A stretch of 11,181 nucleotides of DNA from Spirochaetia bacterium UBA5368 (GTDB taxonomy: Bacteria > Spirochaetota > UBA4802 > UBA5368), in NCBI GenBank assembly GCA_002407865.1, contig DHPI01000073.1:13263-24443 (forward strand), written 5' to 3'. The position numbers and the translations under genes were made by a program. The notes beneath the pieces were generated by a model that searched no databases, was not told where the DNA came from, and saw only the letters and a program-made list of their open reading frames with translations. Positions 1,118-11,181 of this stretch are shown here, one piece after another; position 1 is the stretch's first letter, and the number at the start of each line of letters is the position of its first letter.

Positions 1118-1795
1118 TTACTTTTTAAACAAAAATTTCACCGGGTGCTTTTTCAATTCTTCGGAAATTTCGTTCATCGTCTTCGCGGTTTCCCTGAACG
1201 AAGCAAGTATGGCCAGAATGTCTTTCTGCGAACTTGAGAGTATACCGTTGATGGTCGCAACGCTGTTGGAGAGATTGGCGACCAGCGTACGCAGATTGCC
1301 CTTGCTTTCAATCGAAATATCGCGGATAACGTTTACCGTCGAGGTCAGGGTGGTAAGCAGCGCGTGCACATCCTGCAGTATAGCCTCAAGATTGACGTAT
1401 TCGATTCCTTCAACCACCGAGTGATCCGCCAGAAGCTCGCCCTTCTTCTCCGTATTTCGAATTTCGATGACAGGGTCGCCGATAATATTCTGGTTCTGAA
1501 TGATTGCCGAGCAATCCTCGTAAATTTCTATATCCTTCTTTATGCGCATCACGGCAAGGAAATGGAGTGCGGGCTTGTACACCGGTTTGATGTCGATCAC
1601 CCTGCCGATCGTGTAACCCTTCACCTTCACCTGCGTGCCCTCTTTAATGGATGTCAGCGAATCTATTTTCAGATATACATCGATAGTAGAGCTCGCGAGA
1701 GAATAGCCGAGCTTTAACGTAACAAACATCAGGAGGATCACCAGGGGGATAAGGATAAATACGGCCACGCGCAATTCATTTTTTTCAAACTTCAT
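1118..1795 (-). CDS. mlaD: MCE-domain substrate-binding protein, MlaD-like
   Basis: A 225-residue, single-MCE-domain protein of the MlaD type. These form hexameric rings in the periplasm, anchored on the MlaE permease, and pass phospholipid between the membranes. An N-terminal helix (about 9-30, VAVFILIPLVILLMFVTLKL) anchors it. The MCE domain spans about 37-115 and holds the core signature GTQVKVKGYTIGRVIDI (53-69). A helical segment follows (about 134-215) and a short basic/aromatic tail ends HPVKFLFKK; in related proteins such helices line the channel. The length fits short MlaD-type proteins. GAGGAA lies 4 bases before the ATG at 1795, a good ribosome site. The gene is third in the order permease, ABC subunit, MCE protein, glycosyltransferase. 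Orthology to MlaD proper, rather than another MCE subtype, is inferred. Confidence 0.88.
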   Translation of the reverse strand: MKFEKNELRVAVFILIPLVILLMFVTLKLGYSLASSTIDVYLKIDSLTSIKEGTQVKVKGYTIGRVIDIKPVYKPALHFLAVMRIKKDIEIYEDCSAIIQNQNIIGDPVIEIRNTEKKGELLADHSVVEGIEYVNLEAILQDVHALLTTLTSTVNVIRDISIESKGNLRTLVANLSNSVATINGILSSSQKDILAILASFRETAKTMNEISEELKKHPVKFLFKK

Positions 1796-1815: not shown

Positions 1816-2580
1816 TTATAACACCTTCATGGGGCCTTCAACCGACGACGCACAGTACTGCCGCAGGTAATCGTTGTTCTGCGACACAAAATCTTCCCGG
1901 CTTCCGGCAAATACGATCTCACCCTCGTACAGCATAATGAACCGGTCGGAAAAATCAATAAATCTTTCCGGTTCGTACGTCACGATAATAACCGATTTTT
2001 CAGGCTGCGACGCCCATGTTCTGAGATGCCGCATATACGTCTGCGAATTCAGCAGGCACTGCCCTTCCAGCGCGTGTTCCACCAGCAAAAGCTCAGGATC
2101 AAGCGCAATCGCCCTCGCGTACGCCGTTTTAAGGATTGCCGCACCCGAAAGCGAAACAGGCCGCATGTTACGGCAGTATCCAAGGTGCAGATCCTCGACG
2201 AGCCGGTTAACAACATCACCGATCTGGCCCGTGGTCAACTGCGTATGGTACTTGAGGGGAAGGGAGATGTTTTCAACGACAGACATGTTATTGATCAGCC
2301 CGTAATCCCTCTGCAGATAGCCAAGCTCTTTTCTGTAATTGTGCATTTCAACATAATTGAATGTCTTGATTGACCGGCCGTTGAAAATGACTTCACCGCC
2401 AAACTGGTCTGTAACGCCCGCAATCAGCGGGCAGACAATTTCCGCACCAGAATCCTCCGGGCCGAAGATAATGAGGTTTTCGCCACGACCGAGAGTAAAC
2501 GTGACATCGTTCAACGACGTACGTTCCTCACGGTAGTAGAGGATATGCTCGAACCTTAATATGTCGTTACTGTCGCTCAT
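1816..2580 (-). CDS. mlaF: MlaF-like ABC subunit with degenerate ATPase motifs (probable pseudo-ATPase)
   Basis: Placed between MlaE- and MlaD-like genes, this is the nucleotide-binding subunit position of an MCE transporter. I use the ATG at 2580 (254 aa); the same frame also opens at a TTG at 2619, adding 13 residues. Numbered from the ATG, the fold landmarks align with MlaF: Walker A region FGPEDSGAEI (39-48), Q-loop Q90, VVENISLPLKYHTQL (101-115), signature region SLSGAA (143-148), ARAIALDPELLLVEH (155-169) and switch region VIIVTYEPE (197-205). The catalytic residues are altered: Walker A Lys is Ala46 and the next Ser/Thr is Glu47, the second signature Gly is Ala147, the Walker B Asp is Glu168, the catalytic Glu is His169 and the switch His is Tyr202. 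The Q-loop glutamine is kept. There is no frameshift or stop. ATP hydrolysis by this chain looks very unlikely; it may act structurally or pair with another ATPase. Confidence 0.85.
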   Translation of the reverse strand: MSDSNDILRFEHILYYREERTSLNDVTFTLGRGENLIIFGPEDSGAEIVCPLIAGVTDQFGGEVIFNGRSIKTFNYVEMHNYRKELGYLQRDYGLINNMSVVENISLPLKYHTQLTTGQIGDVVNRLVEDLHLGYCRNMRPVSLSGAAILKTAYARAIALDPELLLVEHALEGQCLLNSQTYMRHLRTWASQPEKSVIIVTYEPERFIDFSDRFIMLYEGEIVFAGSREDFVSQNNDYLRQYCASSVEGPMKVL

Positions 2581-2657: not shown

Positions 2658-3431
2658 TTAAAAATAGAACAATGCCGAGATAAACGCGTTTATTACAAAA
2701 AGAATTACGAGCGTGCGAACAACCGCACGAGACACGAAAATCGGTATCTGAAAATTTGAACGCGGCATAAAACCGTAATAGCAGCATATCAAAGGAATCA
2801 GTATCCCGTATATTACGCTTTTTAAAATCGTAATCGCAAGGTCGCTGAAACTGAACGCATCAAGCAGCGTCTGCACAAACGATTTCGCCGGTATGAATAC
2901 CGTCGTCAGCGAAATAAGATAGCCGCCGAAGAACGCAATAATGTCGAAAATTATAATGAGAGAAAAAATCGCGATGATCGACGCAATGATGCGGGGAAAC
3001 ACGATATAAAGTTTCGTGTCGACGCCCATCAACTCGAGCGAGAGGATTTCCCTGTTCTGTTGCTGCGTGGCAATTTCAGCCGCAATCGCCGAACCCGATC
3101 TGCTGACAACAATCATGGCCGTCGCAAGCGGGCCCAGCTCCCGCGCAATAATAATGACGAGAAGATTGCCGATAAATCCCTCGATGCCGAACTTCGGGAA
3201 ATTCTTCGTCGCCTGTATAATGACCGTCGCGCCCAGAAGCAGCGCGATCGAAACGATTATCGGCAGCGCATCAACGCCGGTAAACCTGGTCTGGTTGACG
3301 ACAATGGAATACAGCGACCTGAACCGGAGGTACTTGATCGATCTGAACGAACGCACGATTGACAAAACGAACCGCGAAAAATTTTTCACGCCGTCCCATG
3401 CCGAGCTTAATTTTTTCGGAAAACGGGCCAT
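2658..3431 (-). CDS. mlaE: MlaE/YrbE-family permease of an MCE lipid transporter
   Basis: This is an inner-membrane permease of the MlaE family, about five hydrophobic helices, expected as a dimer with the ABC subunits below and the MCE ring above. From the ATG at 3431 it has 257 residues, the usual family length. The family core ARELGPLATAMIVVSRSGSA (96-115) is followed by IAAEIATQQQ (116-125) and LELMGVDTKLYIVFPRIIA (132-150). An N-terminal amphipathic part (1-50) precedes the first core helix. The frame continues upstream to an ATG at 3548, but those 39 residues are polar, lack a ribosome site and overlap a possible promoter, whereas 3431 has GGGGGG just before it. The C terminus is unusual: the glycine-rich GVG-type stretch I expect there is replaced by PRSNFQIPIF (223-232). 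It is the first gene of the minus-strand operon. Confidence 0.9.
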   Translation of the reverse strand: MARFPKKLSSAWDGVKNFSRFVLSIVRSFRSIKYLRFRSLYSIVVNQTRFTGVDALPIIVSIALLLGATVIIQATKNFPKFGIEGFIGNLLVIIIARELGPLATAMIVVSRSGSAIAAEIATQQQNREILSLELMGVDTKLYIVFPRIIASIIAIFSLIIIFDIIAFFGGYLISLTTVFIPAKSFVQTLLDAFSFSDLAITILKSVIYGILIPLICCYYGFMPRSNFQIPIFVSRAVVRTLVILFVINAFISALFYF

Positions 3432-3680: not shown

Positions 3681-5162
3681 ATGAGTATACGAAACAGGTA
3701 CATACTTTTTCTGCTGCTATCCACGCTTGTGCTTCAGATATATATAGTACTCAAGGCCGACGATATCATGTACATGTCCGATACCGTGCGGGGCTTTTTT
3801 CTTCAGGTGCGCTCGGCGGTCGCCCCCGCGGAAGACCGCTTCCGCATAGTGCGTCCCGCGAGCTACAGGAAATACAAGGCAACCTATGCCGGCCTTCCAT
3901 CTGAATATCGCCATGCGGGATATTTCCTTTTTTACAGGGCGCCGCGCGACATCAGGCTGAACGCGCTCGCCGACGAAGCGCTCAGGTATACGCACTACTT
4001 CAAGCGCTATCAGTTGGAGCGCGCCATCAGGGAACACAACGGGATCAACGGCGCGATTGTGCGCCGCGGCGACGTCGTCTATATCCCCCACTCCCTCCCG
4101 GTGCTTTTGCCGGATTTCAAGCGAACGTTGAAACCGGCGCTGATTCACTCCCGGGGACTGTATTACACAGGCGGCGCCGTCGGCAGCGAGAAAATACTGC
4201 GTACGATTGACAGGTATGTCGAGCGCGGCATCAACACCATCGTATTCGATGTAAAAGACATTACCGGCATAGTTAATTACCGCAGCCACACGCCGGGCGT
4301 TATCGACTACAACACGCACCGCAAACGGACAATCGACGATATCGACAAACTTATCCGTGTTCTCAGAGAGAAAAACCTCTACATCATCGCGCGCATCGCC
4401 GTTTTCCGCGACCATCTGCTGTACGAGCGCGTGCCAGAATTCGCGATACGGTCAAAAAAAACCGGCGGGCGGTGGAACGAGGATTCGGCCGAGCTCTGGT
4501 GCGATCCGACAAACGTGAGCGTGCAGGATTACAACATCGCGCTTGCGATAGAGCTTGCCGAAAAGGGCGTCGACGAAATACAGTTCGATTACATACGCTT
4601 TCCCACCGCGGGAAATCTCCGCGACGCCGCCTACACCTACAGTTTCGGCAAAATGACCAACGAAGCGGCCATAACCCATTTTCTCGCGCGCGCCCACGCG
4701 GAGCTGTCGAAGCGCAACACCCTGCTCTCAATTGACATATTCGGCGTCGTGGCGTGGGGCAAGGAAGTCGACATCCGGTTAACAGGCCAGCGTATAGAAA
4801 TGCTCGCGCCGTACTGCGACGTAATATCGCCAATGCTGTACCCGTCGCATTTTAACGACAACTTTGACGGCTACGCCAGTCCTGGCGACAATCCGTATTA
4901 TTTTATAAACCGCGGCGTTCTGAAGGTAAAAGCCTTCGCGAAGGGAAAGCCGATCAGGCCGTGGCTCCAGGCATTCAAATGGCGCACATCGGCATACAAC
5001 GAAAATTATATACTTGAACAAATAAAGGCAGCCAACGACGCGGGCGCCCTTGGATACCTTTTTTGGAACGCGTCGAACAACTACGAGTACGCGTACGACG
5101 GCCTCGCAAAACTCGCATCGGTTGAGAAAAAAAACGACATCGCACAAGGAGCACACAGGTGA
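3681..5162 (+). CDS. Membrane-anchored DUF4015-type putative glycoside hydrolase with LysM-like segment
   Basis: A 493-residue protein beginning with a hydrophobic helix (8-24, ILFLLLSTLVLQIYIVL), a signal anchor or signal peptide placing the rest outside the cytoplasm. Residues about 101-136 end in REHNGINGAIVRRGDVVYIP, resembling the second half of a LysM peptidoglycan-binding repeat. From about 158 to 475 the sequence matches the putative glycosyl hydrolase family DUF4015, a predicted TIM barrel: NTIVFDVKDITGIVNYRS (185-202), IARIAVFRDHLL (236-247), ELWCDPTN (271-278), DEIQFDYIRFP (298-308), LSIDIFGVVAW (349-359) and ISPMLYPSHF (382-391). The acidic residues in FDVKD and QFDYIRFP are candidate catalytic groups. 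Substrate is unknown; a cell-wall or surface glycan is inferred. The ATG at 3681 lacks a clear ribosome site. Its stop overlaps the start of the methyltransferase gene. Confidence 0.85.
   Translation: MSIRNRYILFLLLSTLVLQIYIVLKADDIMYMSDTVRGFFLQVRSAVAPAEDRFRIVRPASYRKYKATYAGLPSEYRHAGYFLFYRAPRDIRLNALADEALRYTHYFKRYQLERAIREHNGINGAIVRRGDVVYIPHSLPVLLPDFKRTLKPALIHSRGLYYTGGAVGSEKILRTIDRYVERGINTIVFDVKDITGIVNYRSHTPGVIDYNTHRKRTIDDIDKLIRVLREKNLYIIARIAVFRDHLLYERVPEFAIRSKKTGGRWNEDSAELWCDPTNVSVQDYNIALAIELAEKGVDEIQFDYIRFPTAGNLRDAAYTYSFGKMTNEAAITHFLARAHAELSKRNTLLSIDIFGVVAWGKEVDIRLTGQRIEMLAPYCDVISPMLYPSHFNDNFDGYASPGDNPYYFINRGVLKVKAFAKGKPIRPWLQAFKWRTSAYNENYILEQIKAANDAGALGYLFWNASNNYEYAYDGLAKLASVEKKNDIAQGAHR
5146..5162 (+). 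promoter_or_regulatory. Ribosome site and GTGA stop/start overlap coupling two genes
   Basis: AAGGAG at 5146-5151 sits 7 bases before a GTG start at 5159. That GTG shares bases with the TGA stop (5160-5162) of the preceding gene. The strong site fixes the methyltransferase start and indicates translational coupling. Confidence 0.8.
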
Positions 5163-8044: not shown

Positions 8045-8323
8045 ATGGTAAAAGAGAAGATTTTTTGCGCAAATTGTCTGAACTGCATCGTGATCCGCCA
8101 GTACGAGTCAGAACCGGACCGTTACGTATTGCGCGTGAAATGCCTCAAGAAAAAATGGGTAAAACGCTCCGGTGAGGAGAAACTCTATAAATATTTTACG
8201 GTCGCCCGGCGCATCATGGAAGATTGTGACACCTACGTCGATGCGGGCGAGCTCTTCCCGTATATAAAAAATCTGCGGAAAGAGCTTCCAATTAAGGACG
8301 AAATTTATTCGACCAAGGGTTGA
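8045..8323 (+). CDS. Small Cys-rich protein heading the rnf operon, function unknown
   Basis: A 92-residue, soluble, basic protein that I do not recognise by name. Five cysteines stand out: C8, C11 and C14 form a CxxCxxC motif (FCANCLNC), with C33 (VKCLKKKW) and C61 (EDCDTY) further on. This arrangement suggests a metal site, zinc or an iron-sulfur cluster. The middle is strongly charged (KKKWVKRSGEEKLYKYF, 35-51). There is no signal peptide or membrane helix. AAGGTGA lies 6 bases before the ATG, an excellent ribosome site, and the stop is two bases from the rnfC ATG, so co-translation with rnfC is likely. A role in Rnf assembly, cluster delivery or regulation is inferred from position only. 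Confidence 0.85.
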   Translation: MVKEKIFCANCLNCIVIRQYESEPDRYVLRVKCLKKKWVKRSGEEKLYKYFTVARRIMEDCDTYVDAGELFPYIKNLRKELPIKDEIYSTKG

Positions 8324-8325
8324 TT

Positions 8326-9654
8326 ATGGCGTTTAACACCTTTATCGGAGGAATTCATCCGCCTGAGAACAAGCATCTTACCGAAGATAAAGCTTTTTCA
8401 AACCTATCGATTCCGCAATTATGCTATATACCCATGCAGCAACATGTGGGAAAGCCGGCAAACCCCATCGTCGAGGTGGGGGACACGGTCCGCGAGGGGC
8501 AGTTGATCGGCCTCTCGGACGGCTATATCAGCGCAAATGTGCATGCATCCGTGCCCGGTAAGGTTGTTGAAATCGGCAGATATCCCACACTATACTCGAA
8601 AGAAGGCGTCTGCGTCGTCATCGAGGCGCAGGGCGCGTTCTCAACGTCGGGCAAAATACTCGACGAGGAGCAGTGGGAATCGCTTACCGCGCTTGATTTA
8701 ATAAATCGTGTCGCGGAGGCCGGGATTGTGGGTCTCGGCGGAGCCGCGTTCCCAACGCATGTAAAACTTCAGCCGCCGCGCAAGCGCCAAATCGATACGC
8801 TCATCGTCAACGGTTCGGAATGCGAACCATATCTTACCGTCGACGACATGTTGATGCAAACCCATCCTTCCGAGATCATCGAGGGCGTTCGTGTTGCACT
8901 GAAAATTCTCGGCATCACCCAGGCGTTTATCGGCATTGAAAAAAACAAGCCGAAGGCCATTCAAGCGCTTGAGGAGCGGCTCACGGCGATCTCGATACCG
9001 GAAAAAATTACCGTCGCCCCGCTGAAGGTGAAATATCCCCAGGGCGCCGAAAAACAGCTTATTCACAGCATACTGAAACGCAATGTGCCGTCGGGCGGGC
9101 TTCCAATGGATGTACATGTCGTCGTGCAAAACGTCGGCACCATTTTCGCCATACGGGAAGCCGTTGTACTGCGCAAGCCCCTGTTCGAGCGTTTCATTAC
9201 CGTTACCGGCGAAATAGTAAAAAAGCCGGGCAACTACAAGGCGCGGCTTGGCACCCGGATATCGGATGTGATCGAGGAATGCGGGGGACTCACCGAAAAA
9301 CCGGGAAAGATTATCATGGGCGGTCCTATGTGCGGTATTGCCGTTGACACCATCGAAATTCCGGTCGTTAAAGGCACGTCGGGTCTTCTATTTCTGAAAA
9401 ACGAAGAAATCCAGGTTTCGCAATACCGCCCGTGCATCCGCTGCGGCAGATGCGTGGCCGTCTGCCCCGCCGGCCTTATGCCCTTCGAACTCGTGAATGC
9501 GATCGAGAAAGGGCGATACGACCTTGTGGAGCCATCGAACCCCTTTGACTGTATCATGTGCGGGTCGTGCGCATACTGCTGCCCATCCAAAAGACCGTTA
9601 AACCACTTCATTAGAATGGCGCAGGAAAAGCTTCACAAGAAACACAAGCAATAA
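8326..9654 (+). CDS. rnfC: Electron transport complex subunit RnfC
   Basis: A 442-residue peripheral subunit of the Rnf complex, which couples ferredoxin oxidation and NAD reduction to Na+ or H+ export. RnfC carries the NADH/FMN module and docks on the cytoplasmic face. The opening GGIHPPENK (8-16) is the family hallmark. Then come a barrel-sandwich segment (about 36-105), the nucleotide/flavin motif GLGGAAFPTHVKL (136-148) with NGSECEPYLTVDD (162-174), and an SLBB-like region (about 290-340). Two [4Fe-4S] motifs close the chain: C370, C373, C376, C380P and C409, C412, C415, C419P. It lacks the long repetitive C-terminal extension of gammaproteobacterial RnfC. I place the start at ATG 8326, with AAGGG 6 bases upstream; a TTG at 8320 in the same frame overlaps the previous stop and is less likely. 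Confidence 0.97.
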   Translation: MAFNTFIGGIHPPENKHLTEDKAFSNLSIPQLCYIPMQQHVGKPANPIVEVGDTVREGQLIGLSDGYISANVHASVPGKVVEIGRYPTLYSKEGVCVVIEAQGAFSTSGKILDEEQWESLTALDLINRVAEAGIVGLGGAAFPTHVKLQPPRKRQIDTLIVNGSECEPYLTVDDMLMQTHPSEIIEGVRVALKILGITQAFIGIEKNKPKAIQALEERLTAISIPEKITVAPLKVKYPQGAEKQLIHSILKRNVPSGGLPMDVHVVVQNVGTIFAIREAVVLRKPLFERFITVTGEIVKKPGNYKARLGTRISDVIEECGGLTEKPGKIIMGGPMCGIAVDTIEIPVVKGTSGLLFLKNEEIQVSQYRPCIRCGRCVAVCPAGLMPFELVNAIEKGRYDLVEPSNPFDCIMCGSCAYCCPSKRPLNHFIRMAQEKLHKKHKQ

Positions 9655-9676
9655 TAATTACAACCGGACAACGCTT

Positions 9677-10753
9677 ATGCCCCAGAAAAAATCACTTGCA
9701 CCAGAACTTGTACTTTCCAGCGCGCCTCACGTAAAGGCCGGGCAATCGATAACATCCATAATGTGGATGGTCGTGCTCGCGCTCATGCCGGCGACGCTTT
9801 ATTCCGTATATCTGTACGGCATTCATGCCCTTCTCGTGATATGCGTCGCCATCATCGCCGCTGTTGCGTCAGAAGCGCTGTACCTTTTTTTAATGAAAAA
9901 GCCGGTAACCATACTTGACGGATCGGCAGTAATCACCGGACTTTTGCTCGCCATGAACGTACCGCCCGATGTGCCGTTATGGACTGTCGGCATAGGCTCG
10001 GCGTTCGCCATTATCATCGCAAAACAGCTCTTCGGCGGCCTCGGCTTCAACATATTCAATCCGGCTCTTGCGGGCCGCGCATTTTTGATGGCGTCATGGC
10101 CCGTATACATGACAACAAAATGGCACACCTTCACTCCAACAAATGTGCTCTCGCAGGGGATAACGAATATCACCGACATGCCCGAACAGGCGTTTGATGT
10201 AGTGACACAGGCGACGCCGCTCGGCGCATTGAAGGAGGTCCCGAAGCTGCTGTCCGATCTGCACGTACTGCCCGACATGCTGCACAATCTGCTCTTTTCC
10301 AAAGAAATGTTGAAATCCCTCTTCGTGGGGAATGTCGGCGGCTGCATTGGCGAGACTTCCGCTCTGCTTCTTATTCTGGGAGGGCTGTTCCTTCTCTATA
10401 AGCGGATCATCACATGGCATGTTCCGGCAATGTACATCGGCACGGTTGTAATTTTCATGTATTGCTACTACTCACTGAGCGGGTTCCCCTATCCTGTTGA
10501 GGCGACAGTATATCATGTCTTCTCGGGCGGTCTAATGCTCGGCGCGTTTTTTATGGCGACCGATATGGTGACCTCTCCGGTGACATGGAAGGGCATGCTC
10601 ATCTTCGGAGCCGGATGCGGCATTCTGACGTGCGTTATCAGGCTCTGGGGCGGCTACCCCGAGGGCGTATCGTATTCGATATTATTGATGAATACGGCCG
10701 TGCCGTTGATTGACAGGTATACAAAACCGCGGATATTCGGTACGCGCGCATGA
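9677..10753 (+). CDS. rnfD: Electron transport complex subunit RnfD
   Basis: A 358-residue integral membrane subunit of Rnf, related to NqrB. It begins with LVLSSAPHVKAG (11-22), typical of the family, and contains many hydrophobic helices (for example 28-48, 50-72, 104-116, 228-244, 252-268, 280-296, 304-324). The motif KQLFGGLGFNIFNPALAGRAF (116-136) is a family signature. VVTQATPLGALK (175-186) matches the site where FMN is attached through a phosphoester bond, making Thr180 the likely flavin-bearing residue. Helices near the C terminus include GFPYPVEATVYHVFSGGLMLGAFFMATDMVTSP, which is strongly conserved. It starts 22 bases after the rnfC stop; the ribosome site is weak. The order rnfC-rnfD-rnfG matches known operons. 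Confidence 0.96.
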   Translation: MPQKKSLAPELVLSSAPHVKAGQSITSIMWMVVLALMPATLYSVYLYGIHALLVICVAIIAAVASEALYLFLMKKPVTILDGSAVITGLLLAMNVPPDVPLWTVGIGSAFAIIIAKQLFGGLGFNIFNPALAGRAFLMASWPVYMTTKWHTFTPTNVLSQGITNITDMPEQAFDVVTQATPLGALKEVPKLLSDLHVLPDMLHNLLFSKEMLKSLFVGNVGGCIGETSALLLILGGLFLLYKRIITWHVPAMYIGTVVIFMYCYYSLSGFPYPVEATVYHVFSGGLMLGAFFMATDMVTSPVTWKGMLIFGAGCGILTCVIRLWGGYPEGVSYSILLMNTAVPLIDRYTKPRIFGTRA

Positions 10754-10819
10754 CACAGGCCACCAATTGCACATACCGGCAGGAACACCACGCAATGGCC
10801 GATCAACCGAGGTTAATGC

Positions 10820-11181
10820 ATGAATAAGTCATTAGTAAAACCGACTATAATTCTCGCAGTGATCGCGTTTATCGCGACGTTTGCGCTTTCGCATATCAAA
10901 AAGATAACATATCCGAGCATTCAGAAACAGGAACGGCAAAAGCGCGACGCCGCGCTCATGGCTGTGCTCCCCGGCTATACAATTACGGAAGAAAAAAGGG
11001 CCCCGATCGACAACAGGGAATTCACATACTGGATCGCGGAAAAGATCGAAAACAATGCGCCGATCACAGCGTATGCATTCGTGACAGAAAAGGGCGGTTA
11101 CAGCGGACCGGTGCGTTCAATGGTCGGAATCGACAAATCCGGCAGATTGCTCGGGATCGCGATTATTCAGCAGTCGGAAAA
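10820..11181 (+). CDS. rnfG: Electron transport complex subunit RnfG, N-terminal part (runs off window)
   Basis: About 120 codons are visible before the right edge. RnfG is an inner-membrane protein with an extracytoplasmic FMN-binding domain that carries a covalently attached flavin. A hydrophobic helix (8-25, PTIILAVIAFIATFALSH) follows a short basic N terminus, and the start of the FMN-binding domain is clear at GYSGPVRSMVGID (93-105) and LLGIAIIQQSE (110-120). The (S/T)GAT-type flavin-linking motif lies beyond the window. The ATG at 10820 has GAGG 7 bases upstream; another ATG at 10816 is out of frame and stops after three codons. The 66-base gap after rnfD holds no feature I can support. 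Confidence 0.92.
   Translation, partial: MNKSLVKPTIILAVIAFIATFALSHIKKITYPSIQKQERQKRDAALMAVLPGYTITEEKRAPIDNREFTYWIAEKIENNAPITAYAFVTEKGGYSGPVRSMVGIDKSGRLLGIAIIQQSE

Follow-up and report, generated by a model that had tools for sequence, protein, structure and literature searches.

The window, an 11,181-nucleotide stretch of one contig (C11) of the Spirochaetia bacterium UBA5368 genome (83% complete, 3.4 Mb), carries on its minus strand three tightly spaced genes in the order mlaE, a degenerate mlaF (its product hereafter called pseudo-MlaF) and an MCE gene (Table 1). The permease belongs to the MlaE family (Pfam PF02405, 188 bits against a cut-off of 22.5), and the third product holds an MCE domain (PF02470, 45.5 bits against a cut-off of 25.1). 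Pseudo-MlaF is encoded by an intact frame, as read on the DNA; MlaF chains are its best sequence matches in the PDB, and its AlphaFold2 model (37 sequences; pLDDT 93.6, pTM 0.90) has E. coli MlaF (6xbd_I) as best solved fold match (TM 0.92, rmsd 1.7), with Mce1 structures also among the structure-database matches. The MlaF fold is predicted to be kept. Profile scores place the protein under the NCBIfam equivalog cut-off for MlaF (NF008809; 95.4 bits versus 441), with the tungstate ATPase model WtpC scoring it slightly higher than NF008809 does (97.6 bits, cut-off 440); judged by its sequence, pseudo-MlaF is a relative of MlaF and not an equivalog. Directly upstream, on the opposite strand, lies a gene for a putative glycosyl hydrolase (DUF4015; 3681-5162), and the frames at 8320-11179 resemble rnfC, rnfD and the start of rnfG, which we take to belong to an Rnf electron-transport complex.

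Table 1 Features of the mlaE-pseudo-mlaF-MCE locus in window coordinates
Feature	Position	Strand	Basis or remarks
Pseudo-MlaF (P0001), ABC nucleotide-binding subunit fold, catalytic residues replaced	1816..2580	-	DNA, alignment, model; 254 aa, ATG at 2580, stop at 1816
Walker A, degenerate, GPEDSGAE	2440..2463	-	Lys to Ala, codon 2443-2445
Q-loop region GYLQRDYGL	2296..2322	-	Arg in canonical Gln column, Gln one residue off
Signature, degenerate, LSGAA	2137..2151	-	Second Gly is Ala in the window copy
Walker B and catalytic pair	2074..2079	-	Walker B Asp to Glu (2077-2079), catalytic Glu to His (2074-2076)
D-loop	2056..2058	-	Asp to Cys
Switch	1975..1977	-	His to Tyr
C-terminal tail of pseudo-MlaF	1816..1836	-	Short, conserved Gly-Pro
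Variant MlaE permease	2658..3431	-	PF02405; likely ATG 3431, ORF open to 3548
Variant MlaE coupling-helix stretch EIATQQQNREILSLELMGVDT	3015..3077	-	Usual: EIGxM, then Glu/Asp at E. coli position 127
MCE (MlaD-type) protein, one MCE domain	1118..1795	-	PF02470; 225 aa

Catalytic residues and selection

In a gap-free alignment, the window motifs face K47, LSGGM, D169-E170 and H203 of E. coli MlaF. The degenerate Walker A, signature, Glu-His pair and switch Tyr named in the initial annotation of this DNA were all found at the codons given for them, both on the DNA and in this alignment. Its further statement that the Q-loop glutamine is kept does not hold, the register being off by one: GYLQRDYGL lies against SMLFQSGAL of E. 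coli MlaF, placing window Gln90 opposite Phe and Arg91 opposite the Q-loop Gln. The replaced D-loop Asp is a loss beyond those it had named. The protein thus carries none of the sequence hallmarks of an active ABC ATPase (Walker A Lys, Walker B Asp with catalytic Glu, LSGG and switch His).

We searched 59 genomes, among them 45 of the same order besides the source genome (46 order genomes with it). An orthologue of pseudo-MlaF occurs in 41 of the 45 (42 of 46 with the source genome), twice in one genome (G007), and is absent from four (G009, G016, G018 and G025); residue counts for the order rest on 43 loci from 42 genomes, the window included, with one locus represented by another record of the same gene (L206 for L041) in the alignment. 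At none of the 43 loci did we find the Walker A Lys, the Q-loop Gln in its column, the second signature Gly (Ser in 39), the catalytic Glu (His in 39) or the D-loop Asp (Cys in 30, Ser in 12); the Walker B Asp is present at one (Glu in 41) and the switch His at two (Tyr in 36), and a Glu follows the Walker A Pro at all 43. No locus has an internal stop codon, and one copy (G041) lacks about 38 residues around the switch region. In the same alignment, three other MlaF classes (37 control rows representing 35 distinct loci; the nine 'can' rows include two duplicates, L208 = L163 and L209 = L162) keep the Lys, the second signature Gly, the Walker B Asp, the D-loop Asp and the Q-loop Gln in 37 of 37 rows. 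All 10 class B controls replace the catalytic Glu by Asp, and two carry Gln instead of the switch His; in class A, a single row shows Gln at the first signature Gly. The losses in pseudo-MlaF are neither chance nor the mark of one odd genome, being the same in 42 of the 46 order genomes.

Pairwise dN/dS (NG86) was computed within one genus (g2; 5 genomes, 10 pairs), leaving out pairs with the source genome, for which dS was above 1.6 or not computable. Values were 0.09-0.175 for pseudo-MlaF, 0.036-0.115 for MlaE and 0.031-0.062 for the MCE protein over these pairs; for G001-G007, the one unsaturated pair for the intact operon MlaF, that protein gave 0.098 and pseudo-MlaF 0.128. Pseudo-MlaF is therefore constrained, more loosely than MlaE and MCE and about as much as intact MlaF. 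The initial annotation had taken intact Walker motifs in sister genomes, together with relaxed selection, as the sign of simple decay; the opposite was found, with no orthologue intact and selection purifying. With the Walker A Lys and catalytic Glu gone throughout, these values support its reading of the protein as a pseudo-ATPase, and decay or assembly error confined to a single genome is ruled out by the recurrence of the losses and by dN/dS.

A co-inherited, matched permease

MlaE adjoins pseudo-MlaF at 42 of the 43 order loci and an MCE gene at 37. The six loci without an adjoining MCE gene comprise two at a contig end (G011 and G004), three in genomes whose MCE genes lie only elsewhere (G010, G019 and G023) and one where pseudo-MlaF stands apart from an MlaE-MCE pair (G013). 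A scan of 392 genomes of the phylum, an even draw from a larger group (family threshold E<=1e-40), placed the pseudo-MlaF family in 55: the 42 of the order and 13 of two further families (11 of f22, among them matches to public MAG records of a Turneriella sp. and a Leptospiraceae bacterium, and 2 of f38), here termed Leptospiraceae-type. In the ten Leptospiraceae-type loci read (L190-L199), pseudo-MlaF is paired with an MCE gene and the stretch holds no MlaE; in all 13 genomes the variant MlaE lies on another contig or more than 200 kb away. At the thresholds used, variant MlaE (215 bits or more) was found in exactly the 55 of 392 genomes that have pseudo-MlaF, the next MlaE proteins of the scan reaching 171 bits or less (14 genomes without variant MlaE). 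The co-occurrence holds in the 14 genomes where the two genes lie apart, and no variant MlaE was found in the four order genomes without pseudo-MlaF.

The two proteins are also altered where they would touch. Contacts between E. coli MlaE and MlaF, as given in the interface description of PMC7784689, include E127-R52 and R142-E112. Over 53 rows (43 from the order and 10 Leptospiraceae-type, the latter from 10 of 13 genomes each for MlaF, L190-L199, and MlaE, L230-L239, with seven genomes in common; one divergent locus, L207, was left out of the MlaE counts), variant MlaE has Gln for M123 and Ala, Ser or Cys for G121 in 53 of 53, and Arg or Lys for E127 in 44 (35 of 43 in the order; Arg in 9 of 10 Leptospiraceae-type). 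In pseudo-MlaF, R52 is replaced in 52 of 53 (order: Pro 27, Asp 6, others 9, Arg 1; Leptospiraceae-type: Asp or Glu in 6 of 10), where control MlaFs have Lys or Arg in 37 of 37, and E112 is Tyr in 53 of 53 (43 of 43 in the order), where the other classes have Glu or Arg. In the order, 6 of 43 loci show an outright acid-base swap (Asp52 with Arg or Lys127), as do 3 of the 7 Leptospiraceae-type genomes with both genes read; at R142 and Y108, two further contact positions, the variant is not distinct from every other class. On balance, this re-matched interface speaks for a dedicated MlaE/pseudo-MlaF pair and against docking of other ATPases.

Pseudo-MlaFs of the order group with those of the Leptospiraceae-type set in one clade (SH-aLRT 99; fast tree search without bootstrap, on 80 rows, to which the clade contributes 24 order and 8 Leptospiraceae-type), within which the Leptospiraceae-type set shows less advanced loss. 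Its ten MlaFs read keep the Lys in 9, the Walker B Asp in 6 and the catalytic Glu in 1, with the switch His and the second signature Gly in none. Because the Lys persists there beside a lost signature Gly and switch His in a single clade, the signature and switch His probably disappeared before the Lys, whose loss followed in the order. A more distant Spirochaetota operon (G048) has an MlaF with Lys, Asp-Glu and switch His, and with Tyr already at 112, beside an MlaE with the usual EIGxM; this operon, loosely placed in the tree, may resemble the ancestor. The initial annotation, made from the window, had missed that the losses are common to the order, less complete in the Leptospiraceae-type genomes and matched in the permease.

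Other MlaF-type ATPases

Besides pseudo-MlaF, the source genome encodes three Walker-bearing MlaF-type ATPases: one in an intact, ordinary mlaE-mlaF-mce operon (C6), a class A protein (C32; L172 1501-2253) and a class B protein adjoining rsgA, with a catalytic Asp (C33; L184 1498-2253), the last two with no permease in the stretch read. The second ATPase encoded away from a permease that the initial annotation had envisaged thus has two candidates besides the operon copy, and pairing with pseudo-MlaF therefore needed testing. The genome also has an orphan MlaE (C24; L031 893-1747) and an orphan MCE gene (C75; L036 955-1881), which with the class A gene apparently make up a dispersed canonical Mla system; at most of the Leptospiraceae-type loci read, genes of these three types sit together. 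In 11 of 13 such loci the gene directly after the orphan-type MlaE encodes an MlaF; five of these MlaFs are represented in the tree, where they fall in class A, and class A therefore probably serves the orphan-type MlaE. The MlaE-facing residues of class B equal those of class A, and A and B may form an asymmetric pair.

With class A, class B and operon-type labels assigned by hand from search scores over the 46 order genomes, no single class is common to all carriers of pseudo-MlaF. The operon type (mlaE and mlaF) is absent from eight carriers, four of them at least 90% complete (G017, G031, G034 and G038), and class A from six, four of them at least 95% complete (G008, G014, G015 and G022); completeness is 99% for G017 and 96% each for G031, G008 and G015, several other genomes being incomplete MAGs. 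Orphan MlaE and class A are both absent from G008, which has the operon copy only, and from G015, which has the operon copy and a frame of 369 aa at 36%. The four order genomes without pseudo-MlaF have both class A and class B. Among the three classes over these 46 genomes, we found no dedicated competent partner ATPase co-occurring with pseudo-MlaF, and sampled members of all three do not have the matching interface. As candidates for such a partner, the class B protein was set aside on its presence in all four genomes without pseudo-MlaF and on the Lys52, Phe108 and Arg112 that it shares with class A, and the class A protein on its going with the orphan MlaE.

Interpretation and alternatives

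We think it fairly probable that the locus encodes an Mla-type complex in which a homodimer of the pseudo-ATPase serves as the structural clamp of an ATP-independent lipid conduit. The catalytic residues are gone across the clade, selection is purifying, and pseudo-MlaF is co-inherited with a permease variant that matches it. Two pseudo-MlaF chains would dock on two variant MlaE chains and keep the permease in a state open to the MCE channel, and lipids would move through the MCE ring without ATP, either along their own gradient or by transfer to a putative periplasmic partner. The clamp is suggested by the E. coli system as reported in PMC10212509, where ATP-free MlaE has a V shape that opens towards the MlaD channel, and lipid transfer from MlaD to MlaC is independent of ATP hydrolysis, which prevents it; because that transfer is spontaneous unless so prevented, we guess the direction to be from the inner to the outer membrane. 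MlaC (PF05494) was found in one of nine genomes searched and not in the source genome. As for assembly, PMC7367683 describes a C-terminal handshake of E. coli MlaF needed for it, and K47A and E170Q variants that fail to complement, from which it follows that an inactive MlaF cannot replace the E. coli protein. The pseudo-MlaF tail has a Gly in 43 of 43 and a Pro in 42 of 43 order loci just before the handshake helix and ends before the terminal helix of E. coli (Tyr261, Leu265), as does the intact operon MlaF of the same genome (249 aa), so dimerisation is unsupported by that feature.

Loss of the ATPase in a dying operon is very improbable as an explanation and is contradicted by the conservation of the gene over the whole order. 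Pseudo-MlaF does evolve faster than its two neighbours, is missing from 4 of 45 order relatives and is shortened in one genome (G041); against this, 43 loci are free of internal stops, separate families share the same losses, dN/dS is far below 1 and close to that of intact MlaF, and the gene is co-inherited with the variant permease. The replacements are specific and conserved (the Glu after Pro, the His for the catalytic Glu and the Tyr for the switch His), which could instead speak for an altered pocket that still takes up a nucleotide or a different ligand so as to gate the permease, or that hydrolyses by other chemistry, and the Leptospiraceae-type proteins mostly keep the P-loop Lys and, in 6 of the 10 read, the Walker B Asp. 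Loss of the P-loop would lower the chance of nucleotide binding and not exclude it; in the order, however, the Lys, the Walker B Asp (save at one locus) and the Q-loop Gln are lost together, and we regard such a sensor or non-canonical enzyme as unlikely.

It is likewise improbable that a competent MlaF-type ATPase (C6, C32 or C33) supplies the ATP cycle in an asymmetric heterodimer with pseudo-MlaF. ABC transporters with one degenerate site set a precedent, the source genome has three Walker-bearing candidates, two without an adjoining permease, and at least one match to an intact query (E<=1e-38) occurs in all 46 order genomes, which would allow a promiscuous partner. No MlaF class tracks pseudo-MlaF, however; the Lys or Arg52 of all 37 controls would face the Arg or Lys127 of most variant MlaEs, and the degenerate signature of pseudo-MlaF would leave the hybrid site defective as well. 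Among the options that the initial annotation had listed, operation without ATP and a scaffold role are thus favoured, short of proof, by co-occurrence and interface residues, and the same evidence goes against the heterodimer. Returning to the clamp reading, we hold more tentatively, at somewhat less than even confidence, that an ATP-free Mla complex, with an inert NBD homodimer, a re-matched permease and an open lipid conduit, evolved before the order and the Leptospiraceae-type lineage split.

If such a conduit exists, it may give phospholipids a passive route to the outer membrane in cells that also have ATP-driven Mla systems, which bears on how phospholipids reach that membrane and on the direction in which Mla works. 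In an Mla set that is old and co-inherited and has an inert NBD, the structural contribution of that domain would stand apart from its energetic one, and the ATP-driven Mla operon in these organisms offers a comparison for a natural ATP-dead complex. Use of ATP is what defines ABC transporters and, to our knowledge, the known degenerate examples keep one working site. The annotation 'ATP-binding cassette domain-containing protein' (as for P0005) hides pseudo-ATPases of this kind.

Related chains were seen elsewhere. Among 24 further MlaF-like chains adjoining MlaE, from Verrucomicrobia, Planctomycetota, Bdellovibrionales, a deltaproteobacterium, a gammaproteobacterium and Spirochaetota, 22 have lost at least two of seven catalytic positions (L094-L096, L098, L100, L104, L105, L107, L111, L117, L121-L125, L128, L129, L131-L133, L135 and L136) and only L093 and L127 are intact, in a sample biased because the query was itself degenerate and in which L100 and L105 look like near-copies. 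Degenerate MlaF beside MlaE in Verrucomicrobia and other phyla, if true, would make ATP-free Mla recurrent. One order genome (G032) carries, in addition to the pseudo-MlaF operon, a second, highly divergent MlaF-like chain without recognisable Walker A between MlaE and an MCE-like gene (L207, on C46; 960-3183). In the literature searched (titles and beginnings of abstracts, with full text of open-licence papers), we found no description of a degenerate MlaF, and the main text of a phylogenomic Mla study (PMC10665443) has no match for 'spirochaet' or 'degenerate'.

Comparison with known systems

One close relative is MlaFEDB of E. coli (also of A. baumannii and P. aeruginosa), with which the window shares the ATPase fold, the MlaE family and an MCE protein, and from which it differs in the replaced Walker A Lys, Walker B Asp, catalytic Glu, signature, D-loop, Q-loop and switch His, the shorter C-terminal tail, the changed MlaE coupling helix and a source genome in which no MlaC was found. 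Mycobacterial Mce systems have a shared ATPase encoded apart, and some of the ATPases in these spirochaetes likewise lie at a distance from their permease; in contrast to the mycobacterial arrangement, the degenerate MlaF here lies inside the operon and no distant ATPase tracks it. Veillonella parvula MlaEFD, as portrayed in PMC10665443, resembles the window in its minimal mlaE-mlaF-mlaD set of three genes without MlaC and in a shortened MlaF C-terminal extension, but its MlaE and MlaF closely resemble those of model diderms, whereas the window MlaF is degenerate, and its MlaD is more than twice the E. coli size, whereas the window MCE protein is short. Finally, TM287/288, TmrAB and ABCC1, according to PMC7756269, have, like the window, lost catalytic residues in a selected NBD; these transporters keep one competent site, whereas the only ATPase of the window operon is degenerate in both half-sites.
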